A stretch of 64,000 bases of DNA. It comes from a virus. Below, piece after piece: positions 16,779-35,787 of this stretch (within the stretch, counting starts at the first letter, position 1; every line of letters starts with the position of its first letter). A program made the translations under genes and the position numbers. The notes beneath the pieces are model-generated. The model was not told the origin of the DNA and ran no database searches. It saw only the letters and a program-made list of their open reading frames with translations. The stretch covers positions 1 through 64,000 of the IMG/VR virus record IMGVR_UViG_3300035438_000341. One strand, given 5' to 3'.

Positions 16779-17684
16779 ATGACATTATCAATAATATTAA
16801 CAGTAGCTGATATAGACACAGGCCCATTTAATTTATATTCAAATGCAAATGGCTATGAACCAGCATTTGCAGAATTAATAGAAAAAAGTGTTTTATTAGA
16901 AGGATATACATCTACAGTTGTTCCTGATGGTACAACAAACATTAAAGTGCAATCTGTTAATGAGTTATGTACTAATTTTATACTACTAACAGTGGATGTT
17001 ACAACTAGCACAACAACTAGTACTTCTACTAGTACATCAACGTCTACTAGTACTTCTACTAGTAGTACAACCACTACAACTACAACTGTAGCAATACCTA
17101 GCATACTTATTTGTGATCAAAATTGGACAATTGAAAATCTTGATGTAGCCACTTACAATGATGGCACACCCATTCCTCAAGTGACCGATCCAGCACAATG
17201 GTCAGCATTAACTACAGGAGCTTGGTGTCACTATAACAATGACCCAGCCAATGATGCTATTTATGGCAAAATATACAACTGGTATGCAGTAGCGGGCATA
17301 CATGACACAGACCCCAACACTCCAAACAAAACCCTTGCCCCAGTGGGCTACCATATTCCAACCGATGCAGAGTGGACTACTGTGAAAAACTGTTTAGGTG
17401 GATTTAGCGTTGCAGGGGGTAAAATGAAATCAACAGGCACATCCCTTTGGCTCACTCCTAATGTTGGCGCTACCAACAGCAGTGGATTTACAGGTCTTCC
17501 AGGTGGGTATCGTCTCAGCAATGGTTCATTCGCCTACATTAATTACTACGGTTACTGGTGGACTTCGTCAGAGTACAATACTATATACGCATGGGGTCAC
17601 CTTCTGTATTACAGCGATGCTACCGCAGGCAGAAGCACCAGCGCTAAACTAAACGGTTTCTCTGTTAGATTAATAAAAGATTAA
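16779..17684 (+). CDS. Fibre/adhesin: type-1 anchor module, Ser/Thr linker, FISUMP head
   Basis: Residues 1-72 form the shared anchor module (ILTVADIDTGPFNLYSNANG, ending in NELCTN). Residues about 76-107 are a Ser/Thr linker coded by short DNA repeats. Residues 110-301 match the FISUMP family (Fibrobacter succinogenes major paralogous domain), which has a C-type-lectin/FGE-like fold: NWTIENLDVATYNDG, GAWCHYNND, YGKIYNWYAV, HIPTDAEW, WWTSSEY and the end NGFSVRLIKD. This head probably binds a receptor. I choose ATG 16779 rather than 16686, which overlaps the previous gene. The head is markedly richer in G and C than its surroundings, a sign of transfer. Confidence 0.85.
   Translation: MTLSIILTVADIDTGPFNLYSNANGYEPAFAELIEKSVLLEGYTSTVVPDGTTNIKVQSVNELCTNFILLTVDVTTSTTTSTSTSTSTSTSTSTSSTTTTTTTVAIPSILICDQNWTIENLDVATYNDGTPIPQVTDPAQWSALTTGAWCHYNNDPANDAIYGKIYNWYAVAGIHDTDPNTPNKTLAPVGYHIPTDAEWTTVKNCLGGFSVAGGKMKSTGTSLWLTPNVGATNSSGFTGLPGGYRLSNGSFAYINYYGYWWTSSEYNTIYAWGHLLYYSDATAGRSTSAKLNGFSVRLIKD
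17028..17054 (+). repeat. 27-bp linker repeat, copy 1
   Basis: Part of the Ser/Thr linker of the 16779 gene. The same 27 bases recur without change at 23824-23850 in the linker of the 23023 gene. The repeat is built of ACTAGTAC/ACATCA units and could serve as a recombination site. Confidence 0.8.
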
Positions 17685-17694
17685 TAAAATAAAA
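17664..17694 (+). repeat. 31-bp repeat at gene 3' end, copy 1
   Basis: The last codons, stop and spacer of this FISUMP gene match 22974-23004, at the end of the second FISUMP gene, with one mismatch. It marks the right border of an exchangeable adhesin cassette or reflects a recent duplication. Confidence 0.7.
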
Positions 17695-17698
17695 CCAA

Positions 17699-18775
17699 AT
17701 GATAGTATTCTTACAATTAACAACAGCAGGAGTAGATTCAGGTCCATTTGATCTTTATTCTAATTTAGATACATACTCTGAACCTTTTGAAGAAAATGTA
17801 TCTAGAGATTTATTAATAGCAGGCTATTCAACAGATGTTCCTGATTATGCAACTGTAGTTAGAATTACATCTAAAGAAAATTGTATTAGTTCTGTTGATA
17901 TAACATTACGTGATGTTGAATGTGACTTAGCTGGATATGTAGAATTACCATGTAATGTTGATATAGTTTCTACAGTGACAACAGATCCTGATAACATACC
18001 AGGAGATAATGGAACAGCAACAATAGTATTTGAAGGAGGAACTGCACCATTTATATACACATTAAATTCTGTAGAACAAGGAGCTGCAGTGTCTCCATTA
18101 GTTATAAATGGACTATCGGCATCAACATCTTACACTGTTGAAATAATAGATTCATATCTATGTAATGATAGTGCAACATTTACATTAGGAGAAAGTACGT
18201 TCTATTTTGATGCAGATTATATAATGCTAACATATGAGTTTACAGATGGGCTAGATCTTGATACAAAAACTAGAATGGCTATTCCTGATATAGGACAAGA
18301 TGTTCCAGCAGATTATTTAGGATTCTTACAAACAATAGGAACTAGTGTTCTACAATGGCCACCATTACCTGCCACACCTATATTAACTTTTGGGGGTGAT
18401 AATCAAGGAACTGGATTTGAATCTGTTTTAATAGATATTAAACAATTTAAAATAGATTATCCATTAGAAACTAGTTTCACTATAGACGCTAGATGTTTAT
18501 GGTATAGACCTGACGATATAGGAGTGAACCCTGTAAATGTAGCTGCTACATTATGGAAAGGTGGAACTCCTGTGCAAGATGGATGTTATGAAGGACAATA
18601 TTATTGCTGGACAAATCCAACAGCAAATAATTCATCTAATATAGATTCTGTTGGTATTGTAATTACAAGCACTAATCGTATTTGTGGTCAAAGAGCTGCA
18701 ACATTAATATATAACTTAGTAACAAAGATAGGTGTATTAAATAATAATGATACAGCAACACCTACTGTATGTTAA
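17699..18775 (+). CDS. Fibre/adhesin: type-1 anchor module plus SprB-like repeat domain
   Basis: Residues 1-72 are the shared anchor module (LQLTTAGVDSGPFDLYSNLD). Residues about 90-165 resemble an SprB-like/Ig-type repeat found in Bacteroidota surface adhesins (NGTATIVFEGGTAPFIYTLN, ending in IIDSYLCNDSATF). The remaining 190 residues are a beta-rich domain with several cysteines that I cannot name (FYFDADYIMLTYEFTDGLDL onward). Unlike its neighbours it has no Thr linker. It is likely a host-surface binding fibre, placed one short spacer after the FISUMP gene. Confidence 0.75.
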   Translation: MIVFLQLTTAGVDSGPFDLYSNLDTYSEPFEENVSRDLLIAGYSTDVPDYATVVRITSKENCISSVDITLRDVECDLAGYVELPCNVDIVSTVTTDPDNIPGDNGTATIVFEGGTAPFIYTLNSVEQGAAVSPLVINGLSASTSYTVEIIDSYLCNDSATFTLGESTFYFDADYIMLTYEFTDGLDLDTKTRMAIPDIGQDVPADYLGFLQTIGTSVLQWPPLPATPILTFGGDNQGTGFESVLIDIKQFKIDYPLETSFTIDARCLWYRPDDIGVNPVNVAATLWKGGTPVQDGCYEGQYYCWTNPTANNSSNIDSVGIVITSTNRICGQRAATLIYNLVTKIGVLNNNDTATPTVC

Positions 18776-18818
18776 AGATATAAACTAATAATTAAAATTT
18801 AATAAAACAAATATAAAT

Positions 18819-19970
18819 ATGTCTTGTACAAATTGCTTTAATGGATGCACAGAAACTATTTCAGATCAGTGTGTCGTATATACAGGAACTGATGTTCCTT
18901 CATTAGGAATTCATACTAATGATTCTTTATTAGTAGTTGAACAATCTTTAATTACATTTCTCATCTCTGCATTAAATGGTTCTGGAACAACAATAGATCT
19001 TAGTGGTATAGATGTATGTGCGCTAGTGCAGAACTATCTTCCTTCAGAAGGAGAAATAGTATTAACAGATGTATTAGAAGCTCTTATACTAGCTTCATGT
19101 GATATACAAGCACAACTTGATGTTGTAGTCTCTGATATTAGTGATTTAAATAGTCCTTATACAATACCAGTAGATCCTGTAACTGGACCTTGTTTAACAG
19201 GAGTTACAAGTTCTTCTGATACACATGATATTGTACAAGCTATAATAGCAAAAGTTTGTACTACTAATTCTTCTGTAGATACAATAGTAGATCAATTACC
19301 ACTATTTGTAACAAAATCTGAATTTTGTACATTACTTGCACAATGTACTAGTAACACTCCAACAACAGTATTGGCTAGTGATAAGATGCTTCCTTTTGCT
19401 GTTGTTCCTTATTATGGTCCTACTAATGGATACCCCACTGTAAATGATACATTTGATGATACAGGAGCAGGTACAGGATATTGGGCTAGAGTGTTTATGT
19501 GTAATGGACAAAATGGTACACCAGATTTAAGAGGAAGAGTTCCTGTAGGAGCTACGGATACACCAAGTACTAATGGTTTTCCAGCACAAACAAATCCTGG
19601 AGTTGATGGTAATCCTGTTTACACTTACAACACTACACCAGGAACTAATAGAATAAGATTAGAATTACCACAAATTCCTGTACATAATCATGTTGGTTCT
19701 TCTGTAAATTCAACAGTTAATGATCCTAAACATAGTCATGCTCCTAATTCTACTGGAGATTTTGCTATATACTCTGGTAATGAAGGAGAGAATGGTTCTG
19801 GATCTAGTGGAAATGAAGTAGAGAGAGATATACATCCCGCAAGAACAACTTCAGAATTTACAGGAATAACTGTCAATACTACATTAACAATAGCTAATGC
19901 AGGACAGAGTGACTTCCATCCAAATGTTCAACCAGGATTTGCACTTTATTATATTCAATATAGACCATAA
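18819..19970 (+). CDS. Tail collar-domain fibre with type-2 anchor module
   Basis: Residues about 1-60 form a second kind of anchor module (CVVYTGTDVPSLGIHTNDSL), shared with the 19973 and 62994 genes. From about residue 190 it is a phage tail collar domain: FMCNGQNGTPDLRGRVPVGA, the His-rich IPVHNHVGSS and HSH segments that bind metal in short tail fibres, and the end QPGFALYYIQYRP. Such proteins form trimeric receptor-binding tips. It is intact and is followed after two bases by another type-2 fibre. Confidence 0.88.
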   Translation: MSCTNCFNGCTETISDQCVVYTGTDVPSLGIHTNDSLLVVEQSLITFLISALNGSGTTIDLSGIDVCALVQNYLPSEGEIVLTDVLEALILASCDIQAQLDVVVSDISDLNSPYTIPVDPVTGPCLTGVTSSSDTHDIVQAIIAKVCTTNSSVDTIVDQLPLFVTKSEFCTLLAQCTSNTPTTVLASDKMLPFAVVPYYGPTNGYPTVNDTFDDTGAGTGYWARVFMCNGQNGTPDLRGRVPVGATDTPSTNGFPAQTNPGVDGNPVYTYNTTPGTNRIRLELPQIPVHNHVGSSVNSTVNDPKHSHAPNSTGDFAIYSGNEGENGSGSSGNEVERDIHPARTTSEFTGITVNTTLTIANAGQSDFHPNVQPGFALYYIQYRP

Positions 19971-19972
19971 AT

Positions 19973-20995
19973 ATGTCATCTTACCCACCTACTCCACAAA
20001 GAAAAGCTTGCAACTGTAGCGATCCTTGTATCTCTACAGATGATGTTTACTATGCTGGTCCCAATCTTCCTAGCTCAGGAATTAATACTTATAATGTATT
20101 AACAGAAGTTATAGAAAAGCTAGATGCTATCTATGCTGTTCCTACATTACAAAGAGTAACAGAAATGGGTAATCTTACCACTCTACCAATCATTGCAGAT
20201 TCATTTGTAAAGATTGGTGGAGATGGTGATAATATTCTATTGGATGATGGTACAGTGTTACCTATAGGAGATTTACCAAGTAATACACAAACATTAGCCG
20301 AAACTCTTGTATTAGGTAATAATACAGGAGGTACAGATATATATTTGAATGATGCAGACTCACTATACTTAGAAAATGGTTCTTATATAAAAAAGGGAAG
20401 GTATGATTTTGGAGCTGCTGGTGGTGTTTCAAGAATTTGCTCTGTAGGTTATGAAGATATGTGGCAAGCTGGTTTCAGACACGTTTTTGATGCTAACGGA
20501 TTTATAAGAAATTCAACTAATTGTTTTAATCTTATACCTGATATTGACTCTGATGTTACACGAAGATATAAGATAGGCAGTATTTGGACTTTAGATGATT
20601 TAACTAATTATATTTGCACAGATGCGACAGAGGGTGCTGCTGTGTGGGAATTATACAAAGAAATACCTATAGCACCATATAAAGTATATACTGCTTTATT
20701 AAAAAGAACTGGTACTATTGTAAATCCTCCTATAGTTCTAGAAAACACATTAGGAGAACTCACATTTAATTATACTCTTCCAGGAGTATATACTATAGGT
20801 TCAGCAGGGTTATTTACTTTAGATAAAACTGTTGTTTTTATTACAAACCAACCAAGTGGAGCATTTGGAGTTGTTCTAAACGCATCAAGATTAGCCTCAA
20901 ATAATATCCAAATAGTTCAATCTACTAGTAATGGTGGTACAAGTGATAATAATTGGAGTCTTCCAGTATCTATAGAAATAAGAGTATATAATTAA
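19973..20995 (+). CDS. Fibre protein with type-2 anchor and LLDDG motif
   Basis: The N-terminus (about residues 14-55) is the type-2 anchor (YYAGPNLPSSGINTYNVLTE). Next comes a motif also present in the collagen-like gene at the right edge: LQRVTEMGNLTT, then ADSFVKIGGDGDNILLDDGT. Such repeats are typical of trimeric fibre shafts. The rest is beta-rich with no named head domain (IPIAPYKVYTALLKRTGTIV near the middle). It starts two bases after the collar protein, so the two are probably co-translated and may form one appendage. Confidence 0.7.
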   Translation: MSSYPPTPQRKACNCSDPCISTDDVYYAGPNLPSSGINTYNVLTEVIEKLDAIYAVPTLQRVTEMGNLTTLPIIADSFVKIGGDGDNILLDDGTVLPIGDLPSNTQTLAETLVLGNNTGGTDIYLNDADSLYLENGSYIKKGRYDFGAAGGVSRICSVGYEDMWQAGFRHVFDANGFIRNSTNCFNLIPDIDSDVTRRYKIGSIWTLDDLTNYICTDATEGAAVWELYKEIPIAPYKVYTALLKRTGTIVNPPIVLENTLGELTFNYTLPGVYTIGSAGLFTLDKTVVFITNQPSGAFGVVLNASRLASNNIQIVQSTSNGGTSDNNWSLPVSIEIRVYN

Positions 20996-21053
20996 ATAGC
21001 TATATTATAAACTTTAATTAATTGCAACCCACTGTAAACTAATTTATAATAGT

Positions 21054-21061
21054 TAACTTTG
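21054..21061 (+). promoter_or_regulatory. Bacteroidota-like -7 box (TAACTTTG)
   Basis: TAACTTTG matches TAnnTTTG and lies 42 bases before the 29-residue gene in a 108-base AT-rich gap. No TTTG is present at the -33 position, so this is a partial match that could restart transcription of the second half of the fibre cassette. Confidence 0.35.
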
Positions 21062-21103
21062 TATACAATAAGAATATATATTTTATTACTTAAAATTTAA
21101 AAA

Positions 21104-21193
21104 ATGAAAGCAAGTTCACAACAAATAGGTCAAAGTCAGAAAGTTAAAGTGCTAGCAAACTTTGACGCAACAAAAGGAAGATTCGGATTATAA
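21104..21193 (+). CDS. 29-residue basic peptide
   Basis: The frame encodes MKASSQQIGQSQKVKVLANF plus DATKGRFGL, with an A-rich leader (TTTAAAAA) like the real starts in this window. It stands alone in the gap between two fibre genes, 18 bases before the next ATG. There is no membrane segment. It could be a tiny structural or regulatory peptide, or a leader peptide. Nothing else supports it. Confidence 0.45.
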   Translation: MKASSQQIGQSQKVKVLANFDATKGRFGL

Positions 21194-21211
21194 TAATATA
21201 AACCAAATAAA

Positions 21212-22090
21212 ATGACAATATTAATAGACTTATCAGTAGCAGGAGTAAACACAGGACCATTCAATCTGTATTCAGATGCAGATGGATATACATCAGCATT
21301 TGCTACAAATATCACAAGACAACAATTATTAGATGGTTATCCAGCTGTTGTTGATGCAGGTACAACAAATATCAAACTTCAATCACTTAGTGATATATGT
21401 CCAAATGATACAATACTTCCTGTAAGTACAACTACATCAACATCTACTAGTACCACTACTACCACCACTACATTGAATTGTTTATTTATTGCAAATGCTG
21501 AAGAATTGAATTGTTCATTTATTGTAAATGCTCAAGAAGTAACAACAACATCAACTTCTACATCAACCAGCACATCATCAACAACTACAACAACCACTAC
21601 TGCAGATCCTTGTACTGGTTATACAATAGGTCAATCAGCATTAGGAGGAAAAATTGCTTATATTTTACAGCCTGGAGATATAGGATATGTGGAAGGTGTT
21701 TGTAAAGGACTTGTTGCAATGACTACTTATCTAAATTTTGCTGAATGGGGATGCCAAGGACAAGATATTTTTCAAGCAGAAGGATTTGCAGTAGGAACAG
21801 GATTGTCAAATAGCATAGCCATAGATACTTATTGTTTAAGTCTAACAGCAGCAAGTTATTGTTTAGATATAGTTGAAGGTGGATATAGTGACTGGTATTT
21901 ACCAAGTGCTGGTGAATTATACAAGTTATATATAAACAGAGTTGCAATTGGAGGTTTTACTGCTGAAAGGTATTGGAGTTCTACTCAACAACAAAGTATT
22001 TATGCAACAGCTATTAATTTTAGCAATGGAGTGTCTACTGGAGAATTGAAGGCTCAAGCCTTTAGATATCGTCCTATAAGAACTTTTTAA
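21212..22090 (+). CDS. Fibre/adhesin: type-1 anchor, two Thr linkers, DUF1566/Lcl-like head
   Basis: Residues 1-71 are the shared anchor (LSVAGVNTGPFNLYSDADGY). A Thr/Ser linker (about 72-86) leads to two tandem mini-modules (LNCLFIANAEE and LNCSFIVNAQEV), then a second linker (about 110-130). Residues 131-292 match the DUF1566/Lcl C-terminal type domain: GGKIAYIL, GYSDWYLPSAGELYKLY, RYWSSTQ, INFSNG and the end FRYRPIRTF. This fold is related to C-type lectins and is used in bacterial and phage adhesins. The product is likely a receptor-binding fibre. Confidence 0.8.
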   Translation: MTILIDLSVAGVNTGPFNLYSDADGYTSAFATNITRQQLLDGYPAVVDAGTTNIKLQSLSDICPNDTILPVSTTTSTSTSTTTTTTTLNCLFIANAEELNCSFIVNAQEVTTTSTSTSTSTSSTTTTTTTADPCTGYTIGQSALGGKIAYILQPGDIGYVEGVCKGLVAMTTYLNFAEWGCQGQDIFQAEGFAVGTGLSNSIAIDTYCLSLTAASYCLDIVEGGYSDWYLPSAGELYKLYINRVAIGGFTAERYWSSTQQQSIYATAINFSNGVSTGELKAQAFRYRPIRTF

Positions 22091-22112
22091 TAATAATAAA
22101 ATAAATATAATC

Positions 22113-22994
22113 ATGACAGTATTAATAACATTATCAGGAGTAGGAAGTAGTGCAGGTCCATTATTTGATTTATATGCAAGTCCTGATGGAATAAATTTTA
22201 CGGTTTTTTTATCAGGTGTAAATAAAACAGTACTAGAAGCAGGATATACAGCAACTGTTCCTGATGGTACAACAGATATTAAAGTAACTTCTGTAGGTCA
22301 ATGTACTAATTCCTATGTTGCAACAATTGGTGTAATACCAACTACCACTACTACCACTACTACAGCAAATCTTTATTTATGTGCATTAAATGATGTTACA
22401 ATAGGTTCTCAAATATGGACTGCATGTAACTTAAATGTAGAGACATATAGAGATGGTACGGAAATACCACAATTTACAGGCACTAATGAAGACTGGGCAG
22501 CTTTAACAACTGGAGCTTGGTGTTATTATAGAAATAACATTGAATATGATGGTTATGTCTATGGTAAATTATACAATTGGTATGCTGTTGTAGGAATATG
22601 GAATGAAGCATCTCTGATAGATCCATTGCTAAGAAAAAACATAGCTCCTGCTAATTACCACATGCCTTCAAGTACTGAATGGACAACATTAACTAATTTT
22701 TTAGGAGGAAATCCAGGTGGAGATTTAAAAGAAACAGGTTTAAATCATTGGTGGTATCCTAACAGTGATGCAAATAACTCGTTTGGATTTACAGCACTTC
22801 CAGGAGGGCTTCGTGACCCGCTTGCTGGGTTTGCCAATAAAGGTAACTTTGGCCAATGGTGGACTTCTTCAGATGATAATAGTTTTGGCCAAGACTATGG
22901 TATATATAGAATTATGACTTACAACGACAGTGATATTACTCTAAGTTCCAACTATAAAACAAATGGTATGTCAGTTAGATTAATAAAAGATTAA
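22113..22994 (+). CDS. Fibre/adhesin: type-1 anchor, Thr linker, second FISUMP head
   Basis: Residues 1-73 form the anchor, slightly divergent (GSSAGPLFDLYASPDG). A short Thr linker (TTTTTTTT, about 77-84) follows. The head is a FISUMP domain: IWTACNLNVETYRDG, GAWCYYRNN, YGKLYNWYAV, HMPSSTEW, QWWTSSDD and the end NGMSVRLIKD. It is paralogous to the 16779 head but has AT-rich codons like the rest of the phage, so it entered earlier or was acquired separately. The 3' end shares a 31-bp repeat with that gene. Confidence 0.83.
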   Translation: MTVLITLSGVGSSAGPLFDLYASPDGINFTVFLSGVNKTVLEAGYTATVPDGTTDIKVTSVGQCTNSYVATIGVIPTTTTTTTTANLYLCALNDVTIGSQIWTACNLNVETYRDGTEIPQFTGTNEDWAALTTGAWCYYRNNIEYDGYVYGKLYNWYAVVGIWNEASLIDPLLRKNIAPANYHMPSSTEWTTLTNFLGGNPGGDLKETGLNHWWYPNSDANNSFGFTALPGGLRDPLAGFANKGNFGQWWTSSDDNSFGQDYGIYRIMTYNDSDITLSSNYKTNGMSVRLIKD

Positions 22995-23004
22995 CAAAAT
23001 AAAA
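22974..23004 (+). repeat. 31-bp repeat at gene 3' end, copy 2
   Basis: Matches 17664-17694 with one mismatch. It covers the VRLIKD codons, stop and following spacer of the second FISUMP gene. Confidence 0.7.
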
Positions 23005-23022
23005 AATATATAATATATAATA

Positions 23023-25371
23023 ATGACAATACTATTAACACTAGAAATAGAAGGAGGTAACCTAGGACCTTTTAATTTATATTCAAACACAAATGGATAC
23101 ACAATTCCATTTGCTACAAATATAACAAAAGATGCATTAGAAGCAGGGTATACATCTACAGCTGTTCCTCCTAATACAACAACTGTACAAGTTAAATCTG
23201 TAGGGAATTGTAGTAATTCAATTGATATAGTTTTACAAAACATCATTGTTCCATGTAATGGAACTAGTGATTCTGGAGGATTTGGTTTAAAAGATGTAAG
23301 TGTTGATTTAGATCCAGCAGGTGGAGTTATTACATTTCTTTTTGATCCACAAGGAGCAGCTGATAAAATGGAATTCTATCATGGAGTTCCACAAGATGAT
23401 GGAATTAATAAAGTGGCTACTACATCTCAATCAGCTCCAGGAGAATTTGGTGGTAACTATGGTCCATTTGATAATGTATATGGAACACCTCCAGCACCTA
23501 TTATATTTCCTAATAATCCAACTACAGATGTAGATCAATTCATAGGAACATTTAAGGATCCAGTACCTACAAGACAATCACAATACAGTAGTGATACAGG
23601 ATGTACTATTCCAAGTATGACCATTGGAGAAATTACATACGATCAAGTAGTATGGTGGAGATATGATGCAGCAGATTATTTAGCAAATCCAGTAGTTACT
23701 ATTAGAATTACAGGATCAGGTGATAATACATTATGGAATTTAGTTAGAATATGTAATGTATGTGCAACTACCACTACAACATCATCATCAAGTACTAGTA
23801 CAAGTACTAGCACATCAACTAGCACTAGTACATCAACGTCTACTAGTACTAGCACATCAACTAGTAGCAGCACTACCACTACAACCACTACAGTTGGCAT
23901 TACCAATTATATGACAGGAGTGGTTATTAATGATTCTGAAGATAGTGGAAAAACTTTCTATGGTCCATCATATAATTTTACTGGCAATACGGTAGCTGGT
24001 GATTGGAATTATCAAAACGGGGTAATGACTATAGAACAACCTTCTAAATTTGAAACATTTGATTTATTACCTGGAAGCCCTTCATCTCCATCGGATAATG
24101 ATATAATGATGATGCACCAGTATATTCAGAGTTATTTACCCAATGACATCTTATTTGATCCTACACTTGGTAATAAAATGTGGTATCTAATTTCATCAGT
24201 ACAATATGCATCCGAACAACTTGTAACTATACTTGATGATGCAACTTTGATTCCAGATCTACAGTTAATAGCAGGAAGTCCTTCTAAATGGGAAGGTACT
24301 TTTCTTTTCGATATTAATCTTACACAATCAAATTATGTGTATTTAATATGGGATTATAGAAAGACTATTACTACCACTACAACCACTACAGCAATTTGTA
24401 ATTCTTGGTACTATAACGTAACTCTTTATAATTGTGACTGTATTGAACAAAGTAATTCATTAGAATTTAATGGTGCAGAATTAAATATTGGAAGTTTTTA
24501 TTATTCTTCTAGTTTGAATGGTAAAATTCTTGTAAATAGTATTTATTCTCCTTGTGATAATGCTGGAGAAACTATATGGGTACAACCATCATCAGAATCA
24601 AGTACTTGTGAGGCAGTAATTTGTCCTACAACAACAACAACAACCACAGCTATACCAACAACAACTACCACTACAACAGCGTGTGTAAATAGACCAGTAG
24701 GTTTAACCAATGGTTATGTAATAAGTGCTTGTAACAATCAATATTTTACATCATGGAATTTCACTGCTTCTGCTGCAGAAGCTTGTGATGCATTTAGTTA
24801 TTTCCGTTCAAATCCTATAACAACAGGTTCAGGATATAGTTATTCATCTATGCAATATGATACACTAGCAATAGGACAAAAAATATATTTAGGAAATAAT
24901 GGAACTAATTGTAGTGTAGTACAAAATGGAAATTACTGGTTTCAACCAGATACCACTGATACGACTTCTTATTTTAAAAATATAAATACAATAGATATTG
25001 TCACAATAGTAAATGGGGTAATTACAAATATTAATCCTTGTAATTATGTAGAACCTCCTCTTCAATTTAGAGTTAGAGGTACAGACAATAAAATAAATAG
25101 TCTTACACCAAATTTCTACAATATTGAAACTGGAAACTTACCTGCTATAGAAGGAGAGGTTGTTTTAGGTTCAATAACTGCAGGAGGAACTTCTTTAACT
25201 ATTGGATATGATTCTCCTAATTATGAACCACAAATTATGATTGTAAAAAATAATATAGTAGTAGAAAATTCTGCAGGAATACCTCAAGGAATAAATCAAT
25301 CTTTTACTTATAACATTTCTTGGTTAAGTACTGATATAATTAAAATATGGTTGCAACAATCTGGTACATAA
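23023..25371 (+). CDS. Large multi-domain fibre with type-1 anchor and four Thr/Ser linkers
   Basis: At 782 residues this is the largest member of the fibre family. Residues 1-74 are the anchor (LEIEGGNLGPFNLYSNTNGY). A beta-rich domain follows (about 80-248), then a long Ser/Thr linker (about 249-290) made of repeats, a second beta-rich domain (290-448), a Thr linker, a small Cys-rich module (about 458-535), two more Thr linkers, and a last domain from about 555. The latter includes a segment (DTLAIGQKIYLGNNGTNC) that resembles one near the end of the 29533 protein. It is probably a long, jointed receptor-binding fibre. Confidence 0.75.
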   Translation: MTILLTLEIEGGNLGPFNLYSNTNGYTIPFATNITKDALEAGYTSTAVPPNTTTVQVKSVGNCSNSIDIVLQNIIVPCNGTSDSGGFGLKDVSVDLDPAGGVITFLFDPQGAADKMEFYHGVPQDDGINKVATTSQSAPGEFGGNYGPFDNVYGTPPAPIIFPNNPTTDVDQFIGTFKDPVPTRQSQYSSDTGCTIPSMTIGEITYDQVVWWRYDAADYLANPVVTIRITGSGDNTLWNLVRICNVCATTTTTSSSSTSTSTSTSTSTSTSTSTSTSTSTSSSTTTTTTTVGITNYMTGVVINDSEDSGKTFYGPSYNFTGNTVAGDWNYQNGVMTIEQPSKFETFDLLPGSPSSPSDNDIMMMHQYIQSYLPNDILFDPTLGNKMWYLISSVQYASEQLVTILDDATLIPDLQLIAGSPSKWEGTFLFDINLTQSNYVYLIWDYRKTITTTTTTTAICNSWYYNVTLYNCDCIEQSNSLEFNGAELNIGSFYYSSSLNGKILVNSIYSPCDNAGETIWVQPSSESSTCEAVICPTTTTTTTAIPTTTTTTTACVNRPVGLTNGYVISACNNQYFTSWNFTASAAEACDAFSYFRSNPITTGSGYSYSSMQYDTLAIGQKIYLGNNGTNCSVVQNGNYWFQPDTTDTTSYFKNINTIDIVTIVNGVITNINPCNYVEPPLQFRVRGTDNKINSLTPNFYNIETGNLPAIEGEVVLGSITAGGTSLTIGYDSPNYEPQIMIVKNNIVVENSAGIPQGINQSFTYNISWLSTDIIKIWLQQSGT
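23824..23850 (+). repeat. 27-bp linker repeat, copy 2
   Basis: Identical to 17028-17054, within the first Ser/Thr linker of the 23023 gene. Confidence 0.8.
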
Positions 25372-25410
25372 TTTAAAAAAAATCTGAGTTTGTTGGTTTT
25401 CTTAGATTTT

Positions 25411-25444
25411 CTCCTCAAGATATTCTTGGGGAGTTTTTGTTTTA
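25411..25444 (+). terminator. Strong intrinsic terminator closing the fibre cassette
   Basis: CTCCTCAAGA-TAT-TCTTGGGGAG forms a 10-bp stem (one G-U pair) with a 3-base loop, followed by TTTTTGTTTT. It lies 40 bases after the 23023 gene stop. Confidence 0.85.
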
Positions 25445-26771: not shown

Positions 26772-26773
26772 CT

Positions 26774-27346
26774 ATGGCAAGTAATCAAATAACATTAGAA
26801 AGAAGTATAGAGATAAATTCTCTAGACTATTTATATCAATGTACTAAATGTAAGGAAATTAAACCTAATAGTGAATATTCTACTAGTCCAAATAAAAGAG
26901 TAGTAAATAGTTTAGGAAGAGCTTTTGTATCTGAATGTAAAGCTTGCAGGAGAGAATATAACTCTTCTAGAGCAGTTTTAGATAGAAAAAAAGAACTAGC
27001 ACCTATTCAAAGAAATAAACATAGACTTAGTTCAATTTTTTGGTCATCTAAACAAAATGCTAAAAAAAGAAACTTAGAACATAATATAGATCTAGAATAT
27101 ATTAAAGAGTTGTTTAAAATACAAGAAGGATTATGTTACTATACTGGTAAAGAAATGTTTATTGATACAAGAGAAAAAGAAAATAATGAAGATTCTGTAT
27201 CTTTAGATAGATTTGATTCTTCTAAAGGATATATAAAAGGAAATATTGTATTATGTAGATGGGTAGTTAATAGAATGAAAAATGATATTAACTTTAAAGA
27301 TTTTTTACAAATTGTTTCTGAAATAAATAAAAAACATAACTTATAA
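26774..27346 (+). CDS. HNH-type homing endonuclease
   Basis: The protein has an N-terminal zinc finger (CTKCKEIKPNSEY, then CKACRREYNSS) and a C-terminal nuclease core of the phage HNH type: CYYTGKEM, SLDRFDSSKGYIKGNIVLC and VNRMKNDI. I take the ATG at 26774 because the earlier ATG at 26759 lies inside the phosphoesterase gene. Its stop overlaps the next ATG (TAATG). Such endonucleases are mobile and insert between essential genes, so it may have no role in the virion. Confidence 0.8.
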   Translation: MASNQITLERSIEINSLDYLYQCTKCKEIKPNSEYSTSPNKRVVNSLGRAFVSECKACRREYNSSRAVLDRKKELAPIQRNKHRLSSIFWSSKQNAKKRNLEHNIDLEYIKELFKIQEGLCYYTGKEMFIDTREKENNEDSVSLDRFDSSKGYIKGNIVLCRWVVNRMKNDINFKDFLQIVSEINKKHNL

Positions 27347-28074
27347 TGGCAACACTTAGAAAACTTGTTAGTGATACTCGTGCTATGCACAAAATATTAT
27401 CGACTGATTCTTTAACAACAGATAGAGCAATTGCATCTGAGATAAGAAACAACTCTTTATTATTAATTAAGAGAGAAACAAATCTTAGAAAGCTGTGGGC
27501 TACAGATACATTGTTTACAACAATTCCTTGTTTGGAAATGATTGAAGTTCCTATATCTGAATGTTGTGACTATGTGGATCCTTGTTCTGTTGCAAGAACT
27601 AGATTTAAACTCCCACGCATATCTGAAGGAAACTATCAGTATGTTATACAGGGAGTTTATTCTATTAATGCAATGAGTGGAAATGGAAGAAAGCTAAAAG
27701 AAATAACTATCAATAGATATATAAACTTACTTAAACTTCCTGTAATTAAAAAAGAAGAATACTTCTGGATATCTAATGGATATTTATATGTAAGTAATCC
27801 ACTTCTTAAAGCAATTAGATTTGTAGCTTTATTTGAGGAAGATGTAATTAATGATATTATGTATCCAGAATGTGGATGTGGAGCTCCTGAATATACAGTG
27901 GAGCAATTATGTCAAAATCCTTTAGATAAAGAGTTTGCTCTTCCTGGATACTTAGAACAACAAGTCTTAGAGTTAACATCTAAGAAACTTCTACAAACAT
28001 ATTTTACAATCAAGACAGACATAAGTCAAGAAGGAATAGATGGACAAGCTCCAAATTCAAAACCAACTAATTAA
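27346..28074 (+). CDS. Connector/tail-completion type virion protein, 242 residues
   Basis: The N-terminus is helical (MATLRKLVSDTRAMHKILST), the middle beta-rich with cysteine pairs (ISECCDYVDPC, PECGCGAP), and the C-terminus helical (LPGYLEQQVLELTSKKLLQT). This architecture and position before the large nozzle gene are typical of crAss-like ring or stopper proteins that join portal to tail. It is coupled to both neighbours by one-base overlaps (TAATG). The specific ring cannot be assigned. Confidence 0.55.
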   Translation: MATLRKLVSDTRAMHKILSTDSLTTDRAIASEIRNNSLLLIKRETNLRKLWATDTLFTTIPCLEMIEVPISECCDYVDPCSVARTRFKLPRISEGNYQYVIQGVYSINAMSGNGRKLKEITINRYINLLKLPVIKKEEYFWISNGYLYVSNPLLKAIRFVALFEEDVINDIMYPECGCGAPEYTVEQLCQNPLDKEFALPGYLEQQVLELTSKKLLQTYFTIKTDISQEGIDGQAPNSKPTN

Positions 28075-28553: not shown

Positions 28554-28559
28554 TGAACT

Positions 28560-29519
28560 ATGTCATACTATTATAAATATGCTTTTGTAAGCCCAGAACC
28601 TGTTTACTCAACTGTTAAAGAAGAGCTTAAAAGCTATTTCGATACTGGTGCAGTGGATGATCTTTTATTTCCTACCTATTTAGATAAAGCTCTAAAGAAG
28701 TTAGGAAGAACAACTTATGTAATTACTGATGAGATTCTTTTTGTAGAAGACTTTCAAGCTAGGCTTCCTGATAACTTTTATGCTGTTAGAGAAGCATGGA
28801 TGACTACAGAAGTGGCTAACTATCCATATCAATCAGCTAACTCATTCTATTCACAAGCAGCTTCTGAAACAACAATACAAGTAAGTCCTGTAACTTCTGG
28901 TGGTGCTGCTTGTACAAACCTTGAATGCACAACAGGATGTCCTGCGTGTATGCCTGTATTAATACAAGCTGTTTACAAGACAAATAATAGTGTAGCTAGA
29001 GGATTTACTCACAACTATCTACTTAAGCCTGGAAACATATCTGCAAGAAAGAACTGTGGTGTTGATTATACAAACAACTGGGACTTTCAAGCACAACCTA
29101 TTCCTGTAAACAATTTCACTCCTGGATCAGCTAGTATTGATAGCTTTGATATTAGAGACAATAAGTTTGTAACTAATTTTAGAAATGGTGTTGTACATTT
29201 AATATTCTATGCTACAGAGTATGATGAGATAGGAAATCAATTGATTCCTGACAACTATCGTATCAGAGAATATGTAGAAGCATTCCTTAAGTTTAAAGTG
29301 TTTGAAACTCTTACAAATCAAACTGTTGATGAAACATTCAATCAGTTACAACAGAAGTTGCTTTATCACAAACAAGCTTATGAAGAATCTTTCATCATGG
29401 CAAGTATAGAAGTTAAGAAACAAACTGGCTGGGAGAAACAACGAAGAATCAAAAATGACTTAAATAGATTTAATATGTACGAACTTCCTACTAGTAGATA
29501 TGGTAGAAGACGTAACTAA
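28560..29519 (+). CDS. Head-tail connector/stabilisation-type protein, 319 residues
   Basis: The N-terminal part (TVKEELKSYFDTGAVDDLLF, then FPTYLDKALKKLGRTTYVIT and DFQARLPDNFYAVREAWM) looks like the helical core of tail-completion proteins that dock on the portal. A Cys-rich loop (CTNLECTTGCPACMP) sits in the middle and could bind zinc. The C-terminus is a long basic helix ending in RYGRRRN. It stands directly upstream of the nozzle protein, as expected for a connector. The role is inferred from order and composition. Confidence 0.6.
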   Translation: MSYYYKYAFVSPEPVYSTVKEELKSYFDTGAVDDLLFPTYLDKALKKLGRTTYVITDEILFVEDFQARLPDNFYAVREAWMTTEVANYPYQSANSFYSQAASETTIQVSPVTSGGAACTNLECTTGCPACMPVLIQAVYKTNNSVARGFTHNYLLKPGNISARKNCGVDYTNNWDFQAQPIPVNNFTPGSASIDSFDIRDNKFVTNFRNGVVHLIFYATEYDEIGNQLIPDNYRIREYVEAFLKFKVFETLTNQTVDETFNQLQQKLLYHKQAYEESFIMASIEVKKQTGWEKQRRIKNDLNRFNMYELPTSRYGRRRN

Positions 29520-29532
29520 TTAAAATATCATT

Positions 29533-32500
29533 ATGGCAGACGAATTAGATAAAATTAAAAAAATAATTAACGGAGATCAAGACAACATCAAACTAGAGAT
29601 TAACTATGGTATGATGGGTTTGAATATGGATCAAACTTTGAATCAAATCAAAGATGGTACATTAACATATGCGTTAAACGCTGCTTTAGAAAACTTTGAC
29701 TCTAGTTCTGTTAATTATCAAAATGAACAAGGTAATGAGTTCTGTTTACAATTTCCAGAAGGATATTCATTAATAGGTACGTATTTTATTAATGAAAAAA
29801 ATAAACACATATTCTTTCTTACCAATCCTACTACAGGAGATAGTGAGATAGGATATATGGATAACAATGATTGTATCTATCATACATTAGTTAATGCATC
29901 ATGTCTTAATTTTAATATTGATAATCCTATACATAAAGTTGTACATAAGATATCAAACTGTAAAACCGAAATATATTGGACAGATGGTCTTAACTCAAGA
30001 AGATATTTAGATATTGAAAACATTCCTTGGAAATTAGAACCTGGGTCAGATCTTTGTGATCCTGTTCCTGATGTTGGTAATTTAGATTGTAACCAACTTA
30101 AAATACAACCTAATTTTAATATTCCTGAGCTTAATATAACTAATGTGTATAATGGTGGTGACATAACTGCTGGTACATATCAGTTTGCAGTGCAGTATTC
30201 TGATGCATCTGGTAATCCATATACATCATATTATTCTATTACCAATCCTACACCAATTGCTGATACACAATTAACCACTGCTATATTTGATTATAAAGTG
30301 GGTAAGTCTATTGAAGTGACTGTTACTAATTTAGATACATCTGGATTATACTTATATTATAATATAGCTGTAATCAAAACAATAAATAACATTACCACTC
30401 CTGAATTGGTTGGTACATATTCAATTGAGAGTGATGTTGATGTAATAACATACACTGGACAGAATCAAACATTAATCAAATTATCTATATCAGATATATT
30501 TGAGAAGTATCCATATTATGATATAGCACAAGATGTAACAGCTGTACAAGATGTTCTTGTATGGGATAATCTTACATCTATAGATAGAATCAATTATCAA
30601 GCTATAGCATCTCAAATTCAGTTACAGTGGGAAACATATAGAATACCTTCTACAGAAAACTATGCAGATGAATTAAATGCTACAAACTTACGTGGGTATC
30701 TACGTGATGAAGTGTATGCATTTGAAATTGTATTCTTATTAAAGAATGGAAAACAAACAGATGGTTTTCATATTCCAGGAAGAACATCTATCCCTAGTGA
30801 TTTAGTTCCTGTACCAACAACTAATGCAGATTTTATTGGAGAACCAGATCCTGAAACAAACACTAGTCCTTATTGGAAGATATATAATACAGCTTATGTT
30901 ATTGATAATGCTAGTAGTGATCCTATTGGCAATGCTACATCATATAAATATGGTGAATTTGCATATTGGGAATCAACAGAAGAATATCCATGTAATACAG
31001 ATGTGTGGGGAGACTTAGCTGGTCAAAACATAAGACATCATAAATTTCCAGATGTATTAGTTAGTCCTATATTTGAAAATCCTTCACATGTATTAAATAA
31101 TAGTTTTGTACCAGAAATGCAAAGTGATGCTATTTTTCCACTAGGTGTAAAGGTGGATACATTACAAATAGAATCATTAATAGACAATTCTACTATAACA
31201 CGAGAGCAAAAAGATAATATTACTGGATTCAAAATAGTAAGAGGTAATAGAAGTACAAACAGATCTATTGTTGCTAAGGGAATGCTTAGAAACGTAGGAA
31301 CATATCAAAGAGAAGAACAAACTCTGTATTACCCAAACTATCCATATAATGATCTTAATGAAGATCCTTTTTTAAATGATAAAACTAATGCATATGATTC
31401 ATTAGGACAAAGTAGAGTTTGGTTACTTGAATGTAGAACAACAGGTGTATATGAATATACAGATTCAGTTACAGGTAAACTATCAAGTTGTAATCAAATG
31501 GTTGCTGGACAAAATTATGAATTCTGTTCTCTAACTAGACCAAAATACTTAAGTGGTAACGCATGTATAGGTCCTGCAAATTATGATTTTGTAATATTTG
31601 ATTGTGGTCAAAGTGACCAACGAGCATTTTTAAGAGCATCATGTGAAAGAACTTGTAACAATGATCCTTTAGTAACTTTACTGTTCGGAATAGTAACTCC
31701 ATATTGTGGAGCTGGTTGTACTTTATGTTATAAACCTTGTGGTATTGTTGTTAAATATTTAACTCCTGGTACATTTCCTTATTATGAAAATGAAGATGGT
31801 AATACTTGGAGTGCTCAAAATGCATGTACTGTTGCACCTGTATATCCTGGTACATTAGCTCTTGGACAAATTCCTCCTTTTACAGAAAGTAATAATTCTT
31901 GTGTTATTTGGAGTAGAAGATCTCCTCTAAATGATACATGTGGATTAGCTAAACCATTACCAGCTATTACAAGTGAAGCTTCTAGATATAGACAAGTATT
32001 TAATTCTCCTGACACATCTTTCTCACAACCTTTCTTAGGAGATGTTCTTAAGTTAGAAAGTGTAATGTATGGTGGAGGAAGAGCACACTTTGTACCTGTT
32101 AAAGGAAATGCTAAGTATAGACTTCTATCTAAACAAGCTCAACAAGATGCATTAGATGCTTCATTTCTTATTGCAGGTGGTGCAAATGGAGATGTAACAG
32201 CTATATTCACAGCATATCAAGCATACCTAACAATATATGTTAATGGTATAACAAGAAAGAATTATGCACAGTCATTTAATTCTATAGCCAGTTATGACTA
32301 CTATGGAGATATACCAAATAACACTACATCAAATGGTGTAGTAGGTATTAAGCAAAGACAACTTGATTTAAAATCATATTTAATTCCTGGTGTATTAAAT
32401 GTAGGCGATGATAAAAATATTAATAACTACCAAAGAGAATCTTCTATATATACAAAAACAGTAGATAATTATAGTCCTCTTCCATTCCCTAATAAAACTC

Positions 32501-34911
32501 CTAGTCTTCTTGATTCTAGCGGTGCATCATTAATATCAGAATATTCAAGATTTATTATTGGAGGAATAGGTGGATGTGATGTACCTGCTCCAGGTCAGAA
32601 AGCAAACTATTGTACTACTCCAGAAAAAGAAAGAGACATAAAAGTTGTATCATATTATGCATCATTAAAAAATATATTTACTAACCAATGGGGACAAATA
32701 TATTCTTATGAAACAATAGATACAGGATTTCAAAGAATGTTCAATGGTATTTCTAATCCTAATGATGTAGCATTTGGAGGAGATACATTCATAAATAAAT
32801 TTGCATACAAAACAAAACTTCCATTCTTTTTAGATAATAGAGTTAATGCTCCTGATGATTCAGATATATTCTATGATGAGATTGGTAATGTAGCCTATCC
32901 AAAATATTGGCATTCTGCTAGATCTATTTTGTACACTTATCAAAATATGACTAATATTATATCAATTAAAGCACATAGTTTTGATTGCTATAGCGATCCT
33001 GCATTAACAGAAAAAGATCCTGTAGGAGCTACTGCTACATTTAGAACATTCTATGATGGTTCATTTTATTTATTTGCATATGGTGTTCCTAGCTTTTATT
33101 GTGAATCAAATTATAATGTAGATGTTCGTCAAGCATTCAATGATAGAGAAGGAAACTTTTGGCCACATGTATCAACAGGTATTCCTGATGATTGGGTACA
33201 AGAAGAGTTCACATCAATTGCTTACGATAACTCATACTATTATAATGTAACATTCTCTAAACAGAACAAGGAAAACTATTTCTCACATTTACCAGCTGAT
33301 TGGACATCTGATTTATGTTTTACATATTATCCATTTAGAACAGTGTATTCAGATACTCAAGTTAACAATGCTGATGTAAGAGTTAACAATTGGTTAGTGT
33401 ACAAACCATTATCATTATATGATTTTCCTCAGAACTATGGTAATCTTATATCACTAGATGGTATTCAGAATAGAGCTATACTAGCTAGATTTGAAAATAA
33501 ATCATTGTTGTATAATAATCTTCTTACAATGAATACCAGTTATCCACAAGCTGCGTATTTAGGTAATCCTAGTATGTTTGCTAACCCTCCTATTGATTTT
33601 GCAGAAACAGATCTTGGATACGTAGGAAGTCAAAACAAAATGTTATTAAAGATTCCTCAAGGACAGATAACAGTTGATGCTAAGAGAGGACAGATATTCT
33701 TAATTCAAGGAACTAAAGTTGAAGAGATGTCTGCATTTGGTTCTGGAATGAATAGATTCTTTACAGACCATTTAGCATTTGAAATACTTAGATACTTTCC
33801 AAAGGTAGATACAGATAATCATTTTAATGGTATAGGTTTACATGGTCTGTATGATAGTAAATTTGAGAGAGTGATAATAACTAAGTTAGATTACATTCCA
33901 TTAAGTTCAGATATCAAATATGACCCTATAACAAAAGATTTCTATATACAAACATTAATAGGTGATGACATTTATGGTAGAACAATTATAAGTTTAAAAG
34001 ATTCAGAATATTTCTGTAATAAGTCTTGGACACTTTCATTTAATGTAAATACTAAAAGCTGGATTTCTTTTCATAGTTATATTCCTAATTGGTATATAGC
34101 AGAAAACAATTTCTTCTATTCTGGTATCAATGGATGTTGTGAGGAGTTTGATTTTGTTGCAGGACAAATAGTTGATACACCAAGTACAACTACTACAACT
34201 ACTATATTTGTACCTACAACCAGTACTACCACTACCGCTGTAACTGCAATTTGTGCAGTTGAAGGAGTTGTAAGAGCAATTGATTGTACATTAGAAGGAG
34301 TAGGAATTATTACTACACCTCCTATTCCTCCACCATGTCAAAGACCTTCTGATTACTCAACAGAATTTACATTTATAAAAGGATATACATTAGGAACGGA
34401 TCCAGAAGTTGTATTTACTGCTAGTCAAATAGAGGCATGTGCTGCTGTCCCTTCTATTGAATATATACTTAGTCCTCTCAATACAGATGGAAGCACACTA
34501 GATACATTTGATGGATATACAAACACTATATTAGATACTTTAGAAGTTGGAAATATAGTTTATTATGGACCTGGTACAGATTGTACACTTGTTCCTGATG
34601 GTTGGTATTTTGCATATTCGCCACTTCCATTAGACAATGTTTATCAAATTTCAGCAGGTGTGGTTGTTACTAAAACAACTTGTAATCCTACCACCACCAC
34701 TACCACAACAGCAATACCTTGTTACTCATTTACAGTGACTAAAACAACAGTGGGTATTGTGACAGTGAATTACATTGATTGTTCAGGGAATCCAGCAACT
34801 AGAGATGTTGGGCTTGCTGAAGGAGGATTTTCAACACAAACATTCTGTGCACGTAGTGTAACTACACCTACACCTACTGGAGTATCATTAACTAATAACG
34901 GACTTTGTTAA
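29533..34911 (+). CDS. Large tail nozzle/hub-type protein with C-terminal Thr-linked modules
   Basis: At 1792 residues this matches the large tail protein of crAss-like phages, often a propeller-containing nozzle below the connector rings. The first 1500 residues are beta-rich, with repeated short strands and Cys pairs (GYSLIGTYFINEKNKHIFFL; EIYWTDGLNSRRYLDIENIP; GAGCTLCYKPCG). The last 250 residues add Thr linkers (TTTTTTIFVPTTSTTTT), Cys mini-modules (ICAVEGVV, IDCTLEGVGII) and a segment LDTLEVGNIVYYGPGTDC akin to the 23023 fibre. So fibre-type modules have been grafted to a core tail protein. Confidence 0.75.
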   Translation: MADELDKIKKIINGDQDNIKLEINYGMMGLNMDQTLNQIKDGTLTYALNAALENFDSSSVNYQNEQGNEFCLQFPEGYSLIGTYFINEKNKHIFFLTNPTTGDSEIGYMDNNDCIYHTLVNASCLNFNIDNPIHKVVHKISNCKTEIYWTDGLNSRRYLDIENIPWKLEPGSDLCDPVPDVGNLDCNQLKIQPNFNIPELNITNVYNGGDITAGTYQFAVQYSDASGNPYTSYYSITNPTPIADTQLTTAIFDYKVGKSIEVTVTNLDTSGLYLYYNIAVIKTINNITTPELVGTYSIESDVDVITYTGQNQTLIKLSISDIFEKYPYYDIAQDVTAVQDVLVWDNLTSIDRINYQAIASQIQLQWETYRIPSTENYADELNATNLRGYLRDEVYAFEIVFLLKNGKQTDGFHIPGRTSIPSDLVPVPTTNADFIGEPDPETNTSPYWKIYNTAYVIDNASSDPIGNATSYKYGEFAYWESTEEYPCNTDVWGDLAGQNIRHHKFPDVLVSPIFENPSHVLNNSFVPEMQSDAIFPLGVKVDTLQIESLIDNSTITREQKDNITGFKIVRGNRSTNRSIVAKGMLRNVGTYQREEQTLYYPNYPYNDLNEDPFLNDKTNAYDSLGQSRVWLLECRTTGVYEYTDSVTGKLSSCNQMVAGQNYEFCSLTRPKYLSGNACIGPANYDFVIFDCGQSDQRAFLRASCERTCNNDPLVTLLFGIVTPYCGAGCTLCYKPCGIVVKYLTPGTFPYYENEDGNTWSAQNACTVAPVYPGTLALGQIPPFTESNNSCVIWSRRSPLNDTCGLAKPLPAITSEASRYRQVFNSPDTSFSQPFLGDVLKLESVMYGGGRAHFVPVKGNAKYRLLSKQAQQDALDASFLIAGGANGDVTAIFTAYQAYLTIYVNGITRKNYAQSFNSIASYDYYGDIPNNTTSNGVVGIKQRQLDLKSYLIPGVLNVGDDKNINNYQRESSIYTKTVDNYSPLPFPNKTPSLLDSSGASLISEYSRFIIGGIGGCDVPAPGQKANYCTTPEKERDIKVVSYYASLKNIFTNQWGQIYSYETIDTGFQRMFNGISNPNDVAFGGDTFINKFAYKTKLPFFLDNRVNAPDDSDIFYDEIGNVAYPKYWHSARSILYTYQNMTNIISIKAHSFDCYSDPALTEKDPVGATATFRTFYDGSFYLFAYGVPSFYCESNYNVDVRQAFNDREGNFWPHVSTGIPDDWVQEEFTSIAYDNSYYYNVTFSKQNKENYFSHLPADWTSDLCFTYYPFRTVYSDTQVNNADVRVNNWLVYKPLSLYDFPQNYGNLISLDGIQNRAILARFENKSLLYNNLLTMNTSYPQAAYLGNPSMFANPPIDFAETDLGYVGSQNKMLLKIPQGQITVDAKRGQIFLIQGTKVEEMSAFGSGMNRFFTDHLAFEILRYFPKVDTDNHFNGIGLHGLYDSKFERVIITKLDYIPLSSDIKYDPITKDFYIQTLIGDDIYGRTIISLKDSEYFCNKSWTLSFNVNTKSWISFHSYIPNWYIAENNFFYSGINGCCEEFDFVAGQIVDTPSTTTTTTIFVPTTSTTTTAVTAICAVEGVVRAIDCTLEGVGIITTPPIPPPCQRPSDYSTEFTFIKGYTLGTDPEVVFTASQIEACAAVPSIEYILSPLNTDGSTLDTFDGYTNTILDTLEVGNIVYYGPGTDCTLVPDGWYFAYSPLPLDNVYQISAGVVVTKTTCNPTTTTTTTAIPCYSFTVTKTTVGIVTVNYIDCSGNPATRDVGLAEGGFSTQTFCARSVTTPTPTGVSLTNNGLC

Positions 34912-34920
34912 TAAATTAAT

Positions 34921-35787
34921 ATGTCAAAACTAATAACAATAAGGTTAACACAAGTGTCACCATCTTCTGGACCATTCTCAATCTTTGATCAGCTTGGGAA
35001 TGTGATAGCAGAAGGTGTACCTAGAGAAATACTCATTGGTGGGGTGAACTATACTGTAAATGATAATGTGACATCAGTTAAATTAAAATCTACAGGTAGT
35101 TGTAAGATTGAAAAAACAAATGAATTAAATGATATAACTGAACAAGAATACATTAGTATTAAAGTAAACATAACTATAACAGGATGTATATGGAGACATT
35201 TAACTAATATACAATTATACAATTCTTATTATGGTGCTACATATCCATACATAATTGAATACCCATTTGCTTATAAGAATCAAGATGAAATTTTACAGAA
35301 TGTAAAAGACTATACAAAGGCATATGAATATGTATCTATATCAGATGGTGTGTTTAATGATAACACAAGAATAGAGACAAACAATAAATGGTTTACACAT
35401 GCTATTCTATATAATGGACAACAGAGTTCTGGTGTTCTTAAACTAGTTGCTAAACCTCTTAATGATATGCGTGCATACATGCAATATCCAATATTAAATG
35501 CAGATAGTAAAACAATCACTTACACTAAGAGTGATAACTTCTATCAGTATAATACATTCTGGGCTCTTCAGAAAAGTTCTCAAGTTCCATTGTTTAATAC
35601 AGGTTGTGAAAGCTTATCTATTGATAAGGTGATTAACCAAGCTAATATGGACTATGGATCTAGAAGTTTCAAGAAAGCTACACTAAGAGCAAAAGAACTT
35701 AAAATACGACATATACTTCAAGACAATTGTACAACGCACCTAGTGAGTCAATTCATAATTGCTCCTGCACAAATCTCATACAAGTAA
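34921..35787 (+). CDS. Type-1 anchor-bearing tail protein, 288 residues
   Basis: Residues 1-70 are a divergent copy of the type-1 anchor (QVSPSSGPFSIFDQLGNVIA, ending in SVKLKSTGSCK). The remainder has no Thr linker or known adhesin head. It is mixed alpha/beta (YGATYPYIIEYPFAYKNQDE) and ends in a helical, basic tail (SFKKATLRAKELKIRHILQD). Its place directly after the nozzle gene suggests a tail-tip adaptor, perhaps the attachment partner for the fibres. Its stop overlaps the next ATG (TAATG). Confidence 0.6.
   Translation: MSKLITIRLTQVSPSSGPFSIFDQLGNVIAEGVPREILIGGVNYTVNDNVTSVKLKSTGSCKIEKTNELNDITEQEYISIKVNITITGCIWRHLTNIQLYNSYYGATYPYIIEYPFAYKNQDEILQNVKDYTKAYEYVSISDGVFNDNTRIETNNKWFTHAILYNGQQSSGVLKLVAKPLNDMRAYMQYPILNADSKTITYTKSDNFYQYNTFWALQKSSQVPLFNTGCESLSIDKVINQANMDYGSRSFKKATLRAKELKIRHILQDNCTTHLVSQFIIAPAQISYK

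Follow-up and report, generated by a model that had tools for sequence, protein, structure and literature searches.

A small N-terminal module common to five putative tail fibres and a split muzzle protein in a lineage of crAss-like phages

Our analyses of a 64,000-nucleotide stretch of viral DNA (positions 1 to 64,000 of the IMG/VR record IMGVR_UViG_3300035438_000341; hereafter the window, its genes being named by their first position) have identified a homologous N-terminal module in five fibre genes and in a sixth gene, 34921, which encodes the rear part of a muzzle protein that is divided between two genes. The heads behind the fibre modules are replaced between related phages, and among these phages the division of the muzzle and the presence of the module go together. 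With a probability of roughly 0.55, these observations reflect an Ig-like docking domain common to fibres and muzzle, swappable heads drawn from one pool, and docking of the fibres at or near the muzzle. The wider question is by what means crassviruses recognise their hosts and how that recognition leads the muzzle gate to open. The flexible fibres are reportedly not resolved in the phiCrAss001 structure. The occurrence, in a natural lineage, of one domain both on the fibres and on the gate protein, where it sits at a defined point, probably a hairpin, that maps onto phiCrAss001 gp44, provides a concrete hypothesis for fibre docking.

The phage is assigned to the Crassvirales by homologues of phiCrAss001 gp33, gp34, gp40, gp42 and gp43, which occur in the phiCrAss001 order and are followed by the muzzle. 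The ring and IHF-like genes upstream of the muzzle follow that order as well, and the two ring genes are:

27346..28074, + strand, homologue of tail-barrel ring protein R2 (phiCrAss001 gp40; 97.9% probability; upstream context)
28560..29519, + strand, homologue of tail-barrel ring protein R1 (phiCrAss001 gp43; 94.4% probability; directly upstream of the muzzle)

The crass-type terminase, portal and major capsid protein are represented by matches to phrog_6681 (E 1e-82), phrog_6547 (E 1e-97) and phrog_11589 (E 9e-33), families that may not be confined to crass phages, and direct hhalign comparison of the capsid protein with phiCrAss001 gp32 gave no match. The collar is partly recognisable: gene 15192 is a possible THA by a weak match, with the fibre genes nearby, just after it, while the identity of gene 16411 as gp39 (THB) is not supported. 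We infer that the host is a member of the Bacteroidota. Judged from their translations, two GIY-YIG-like genes (15758-16306 and 38006-38629) and an HNH-like gene (26759-27346) situated between structural genes have the look of homing endonucleases.

The elements of the five fibre genes are as follows:

16779..16994, + strand, module copy 1 (72 aa) of fibre 16779-17684 (BLASTP, profile)
16998..17105, + strand, Thr/Ser low-complexity linker of fibre 16779 (linker analysis)
17109..17678, + strand, FISUMP head (PF09603) of fibre 16779 (129.1 bits; cut-off 33.9)
17699..17905, + strand, module copy 2 of fibre 17699-18775 (BLASTP, profile)
17906..18772, + strand, head of fibre 17699: a weak SprB-like stretch, then a phrog_24956-like region
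21212..21424, + strand, module copy 3 of fibre 21212-22090 (BLASTP, profile)
21425..22087, + strand, linkers and Lcl_C head (PF07603) of fibre 21212 (35.2 bits; cut-off 34.9)
22113..22322, + strand, module copy 4 of fibre 22113-22994 (BLASTP, profile)
22395..22988, + strand, FISUMP head (PF09603) of fibre 22113 (116.3 bits; cut-off 33.9)
23023..23229, + strand, module copy 5 of fibre 23023-25371 (BLASTP, profile)
23230..25368, + strand, multi-domain head with several Thr linkers of fibre 23023

The original prediction, made from the window alone, had described six ORFs sharing an N-terminal module of about 70 residues at 16779, 17699, 21212, 22113, 23023 and 34921. All six are present at these starts (that of 16779 being an internal ATG of an ORF that opens mechanically at TTG 16686), and the module is confirmed by both BLASTP and profile searches. 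The five fibres are homologous to one another over their first 65-72 residues (BLASTP, E about 2e-7 to 1e-18 for most pairs); the 34921 module resembles them weakly in pairwise comparison (best E 5e-4) and is matched at E 3e-9 by a profile made from the other five only. Profile searching of the 96-kb record returned exactly these six places and no seventh copy. Over 102 non-redundant modules the residues Phe17, Gly42 and the late Cys63 are invariant, in agreement with the sequence pattern and late cysteine first described. Conservation in related phages is likewise borne out, as hundreds of related viral loci carry the module; an IMG/VR scan yielded 435 loci encoding a relative, 80 of which were analysed (L-numbers below denote loci or records of relatives). 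A scan of bacterial and archaeal genomes found no relatives of the module, which therefore offers no clue to the host.

The fibre-type module was modelled with confidence (pLDDT 92.9, pTM 0.80) as six strands and one helix, and in the model of 34921 residues 1-68 are well predicted with the same order of elements, so that one fibre copy and the 34921 copy agree in predicted strand order, as would be expected of N-termini with a common fold. The best match among solved structures was a T9SS substrate domain (PDB, E 0.7), and the weak matches were mostly to Ig-type domains; since none was significant, "Ig-like" is a probable description rather than an assignment, and we regard the module as probably a small beta-rich domain of this kind. 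At the sequence level, neither the module nor the muzzle rear piece nor 29533 had a significant match in the PDB. A search of predicted viral structures gave significant matches (E 2e-6 to 6e-4) to just five proteins, all unannotated, of Virus NIOZ-UU157 (A0A7S9XH99, A0A7S9STY0, A0A7S9SU94, A0A7S9SU37 and A0A7S9XFL2), whose predicted structures contain the module (TM 0.70-0.92, 20-44% identity). One module protein of this virus has 287 aa, the length of the module-muzzle gene described below, and two have only 77 residues and are nearly the module alone.

In all 155 module ORFs from the 80 loci and the window, the module lies within a few residues of the start codon, and none carries it internally or repeated. 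It lies invariably at the extreme N-terminus, as for an anchor, and is the one part that all the proteins share, the rest being variable; both facts speak against a role in the oligomerisation or folding of secreted-type adhesins, with the module held in common through paralogy and the fibres attaching by other parts. We consider that explanation improbable, even though relatives possess headless modules and Ig-like domains commonly serve crass-like phages for adhesion or as spacers (PMC13370021). Sixteen module genes of relatives continue for less than 40 residues beyond the module, mostly with a Thr run and a few further residues (e.g., L045 10001-10249, L062 10001-10246 and L021 5331-5609), and several directly precede another module gene; the window has no headless module.

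The suggestion that the modules carry different heads is correct for most of them, with the exception of 16779 and 22113, both of which bear a FISUMP head, with 44% identity over the full length of the proteins. The head types that had been named stand in part: FISUMP (gathering cut-off 33.9 bits) is clearly exceeded by both of these proteins and Lcl_C barely by 21212, whereas the SprB repeat (PF13573) in 17699 falls under its gathering cut-off (20 against 28 bits). Among the 155 module ORFs, 93 non-redundant heads long enough for comparison sort into 38 clusters, of which 28 have a single member. By analogy with known families, the FISUMP, Lcl_C and other heads would bind surface molecules. 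Within the linker region of 21212, a 33-bp tandem duplication (21472-21538, 91% match) doubles a short Cys-containing peptide. Between the fibres, genes 18819 and 19973 (18819-20995) have a second, different N-terminal motif of about 40 residues in common (C-x-IS-x-x-V-x-Y-x-G-x-x-(L/V)PS-x-GI-x-T; 40% identical, pairwise E 1e-5), and the C-terminal end of 18819 is a tail-fibre type domain (phrog_8469).

The proposal that heads are exchanged at the shared module is supported by breakpoints located at or just after the module end. The nearest relative, L001, has the gene order of the window and three matching modules, yet its counterparts of 16779, 17699 and 21212 all bear heads unrelated to those of the window; DNA identity is mostly 90-100% per 30-nt bin up to about the module end (one bin at 70%) and then drops to a background of about 20-60%. 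Conversely, the 17699 head occurs in L003 on another module (head DNA 85.6%, module amino-acid identity 46%). Non-homologous heads, by which we mean heads with no BLASTP match at E 0.01, so that remote kinship of fold is possible, are present in 9 of 21 groups whose module DNA is at least 90% identical, with two head families in each of the nine. Twelve representative pairs show 89-99% DNA identity in the module against 18-48% in the head, and in seven of the twelve the 150 nt downstream of the replaced head return to 77-95%. Comparison of these sequences indicates that heads are replaced as cassettes between phages. Replacement at near-identical modules marks a domain boundary and a pool of heads, which could help receptor prediction in uncultured phages.

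The relatives compared are all metagenome assemblies and the linkers are repetitive, and assemblers might have joined modules to wrong heads, giving only apparent swaps. This is very improbable: the flanks are orthologous on both sides of the replaced heads in many pairs, so that two coincident errors per locus would be needed; the same arrangements recur on contigs of different metagenomes (L063/L064/L065 and L070/L080); and the muzzle split, found in over a hundred loci, is independent of such joins. Head variation driven by a diversity-generating retroelement (DGR) was rejected for want of a reverse transcriptase: no RVT_1 match was found in the 96-kb record, which is possibly incomplete. 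Linker repeats as the substrate for recombination are suggested only by a single 27-nt stretch, the one stretch of at least 24 nt common to linkers of different window genes. L001 (5343-9982) contains two genes, of 318 and 1226 aa, that separate its orthologues of 19973 and 21212 and are absent from the window (20995-21212).

The sixth module belongs to a different kind of protein, and the elements concerned are:

29533..34131, + strand, muzzle front piece (about residues 1-1533 of gene 29533-34911)
34132..34908, + strand, Thr-linked appendage (head-type domains) behind the muzzle front piece
34921..35112, + strand, module copy 6, N-terminus of gene 34921-35787 (profile, predicted structure)
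35179..35784, + strand, muzzle rear piece (residues 87-288 of 34921)

34921 had been described as lacking a head and as a possible adaptor or ancestral tail-bound form, but its residues 87-288 are a conserved 200-residue domain which matches the C-terminus of the muzzle, a hexamer that forms the gate of the crassvirus tail tip (PMC10172136). The gene is thus no headless fibre; it is a module fused to the C-terminal muzzle piece. Homologues of 34921 form a fixed gene of about 288 residues, which in most loci comes immediately after 29533; in 13 of 115 loci one or two whole fibre genes separate the muzzle pieces. In profile searches several of these homologues match phrog_15100 from about their residue 88 to the end (positions 1587-1781 of 1783), and the N-terminal part of phrog_15100 matches 29533. 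The muzzle is one ORF in the Leptolyngbya phage Lbo-JY46 (XAI97387), where the 29533 match ends at residue 1455 and the 34921 match starts at 1463, in csAssE-Sib (WOZ57294, annotated as a muzzle protein; 2059 and 2048), in the Flavobacterium phage Fpv3 (gp29; 1766 and 1768), in the Cellulophaga phage phi17:2 (gp043; 2098 and 2103, the 34921 match being weak by BLASTP, E 0.035, and clear by profile), and in IMG/VR relatives. As a single ORF in the four named phages covers both matches, 29533 and 34921 are two parts of the muzzle: together they cover it end to end and occupy the same position, after the ring and IHF-like genes. The homology extends over the N- and C-terminal parts of the muzzle, which is a single polypeptide there and is two genes here and in all module-bearing records, the front with a Thr-linked appendage and the rear with an N-terminal module. 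No module homologue was found in the four intact-muzzle named phages, each searched whole.

In the intact protein the site of the cut is a loop of 3-12 residues, and the alignment of split and intact C-terminal pieces continues to the last residues. A profile of intact muzzles matches phiCrAss001 gp44 (92.5% probability, E 5e-7) and places the split junction at the stretch FYAFKDGKMWEQ, at about residues 1232-1240. Since this is beyond the IG2/crass insertion of gp44 (residues 318-1021; PMC10172136), the junction lies in the last part of the propeller or in the ring-joining region, and the cut point would be a hairpin within a propeller blade. Structure prediction of the whole of 34921 was reliable for the module only, the rear piece being poorly predicted. 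What stands at the cut is a Thr-linker with head domains, a stop, a start and a module, the same order of elements as at a fibre-fibre gene junction. TAA closes the first muzzle gene in 113 of 115 loci, and relative to it the second gene occurs in each of the three frames (in the window both are read in one frame, separated by TAA TAA); hence the split is not a reading artefact, and stop-codon recoding or a programmed frameshift was rejected as its cause. The crassvirus papers PMC10172136 and PMC10136315 do not describe a muzzle split, and we found no direct precedent in the literature on crass fibre paralogues or environmental crass phages. A naturally split muzzle may aid structural work.

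Of the 133 muzzle C-pieces examined, some of which share a contig, 116 start with the module and 16 belong to intact muzzles; the remaining one is truncated by the end of its contig. Among whole records, some of them fragments, each of the 30 that bear modules (the window's, plus 16, 12 and 1) has one copy of the muzzle-type module, and 0 of the 18 with an intact muzzle have any module. The tree of C-pieces requires a single change for the split, so that the association represents one evolutionary event and not 30 independent ones. On this tree L179, the closest relative with an intact muzzle (about 48% identity to the window), groups with the split muzzles at an SH-aLRT of 99, and the branch dividing split from intact muzzles is supported by only 79. 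Gene order is the same in L179 and its kin, where the fibre genes observed start with a different domain. Muzzle-type and fibre-type modules are divided by one branch (support 97), which implies that the muzzle copy has kept its own line. Median dN/dS is about 0.35 for the muzzle-type module, about 0.28 for the fibre-type module and 0.12 for the muzzle piece, and both module types are under purifying selection. The appendages resemble fibre heads (L031 appendage and L006 fibre head, 58% identity; L008 appendage and residues about 560-775 of 23023, 38% over 241 residues), and by this likeness muzzle appendages and fibre heads are domains from one shared pool. Replacement of the appendage between close relatives was seen in 0 of 77 pairs, and the appendage is thus not a frequently swapped head.

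We propose that the module is the docking domain of one crAss-like lineage and would form a common N-terminal plug for the five fibres, whose heads, probably receptor-binding and mostly carried behind a low-complexity Thr/Ser linker, are swapped as cassettes. In the simplest history, a fibre-junction unit (linker, head, stop, start and module) entered the muzzle loop and interrupted the ancestor's single gene at the hairpin; the front piece would thereby have gained a tethered linker and head and the rear piece, the last ~200 residues, the module. The two pieces presumably re-associate in the virion, the heads may bind host surface molecules, and the fibre modules may dock at or beside the muzzle, perhaps on the 34921 module. 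If so, receptor binding by any fibre would be physically tied to the gate.

The site of docking is where a competing explanation must be weighed. In phiCrAss001 the fibres attach not at the muzzle but at the collar hubs THA/THB near the portal, on which gp22 docks them via its first 26 residues (PMC10172136), and the fibre modules of the present lineage could plug into such hubs, the muzzle copy being an insertion left-over that supplies a start codon and a soluble N-terminus. The fibre genes following the possible THA gene, the fibre-junction order of the muzzle insert and the faster evolution of the muzzle-type module than of the piece behind it would agree with this. Yet that module is retained in 116 of 116 informative genes, it has its own line and is still under purifying selection, and phages with intact muzzles never have module fibres, which is otherwise than a mere left-over predicts. 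We therefore judge docking at the collar possible but rather unlikely, and favour docking at or near the muzzle. A further step, which we advance tentatively and hold somewhat short of an even chance, is that the split turned the muzzle into a display platform, with the 34921 and fibre modules forming one docking system at the gate and the heads coupled to its opening; this would permit a change of receptor without redesign of the trigger, with one exchangeable head tethered to the muzzle itself.

The five fibre proteins combine a conserved N-terminal domain with exchanged C-terminal domains, as do the receptor-binding proteins of the Klebsiella phages KP32 and K11, which occur several per phage and whose anchoring has been demonstrated by chimeric phages (PMC8262889). 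The present system, known from sequence alone, differs from these in its smaller and probably Ig-like module, its five parallel fibres, its Thr/Ser linkers and the presence of the same module on a tail-tip gate protein. Tentaclins and DGR-diversified tail proteins are strain-variable proteins with lectin-type heads from phages of Bacteroidota (PMC10743442, PMC12386605); here, in contrast, whole heads are replaced rather than hypermutated, and no reverse transcriptase was found in the record.

Relatives show additional variation around the same genes. In the intact-muzzle sister lineage (L179 644-1968 and L188-L191) the fibres have another N-terminal domain, fibronectin-like by eye, with Thr runs at the C-terminal end, and their stop codon coincides with, or lies close to, the start of the next gene. 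In L192 (1-10591) and L174 (3170-10603) a second cut upstream of the common site divides the muzzle into three pieces, the first of which, in L192, likewise has a Thr run at its end.
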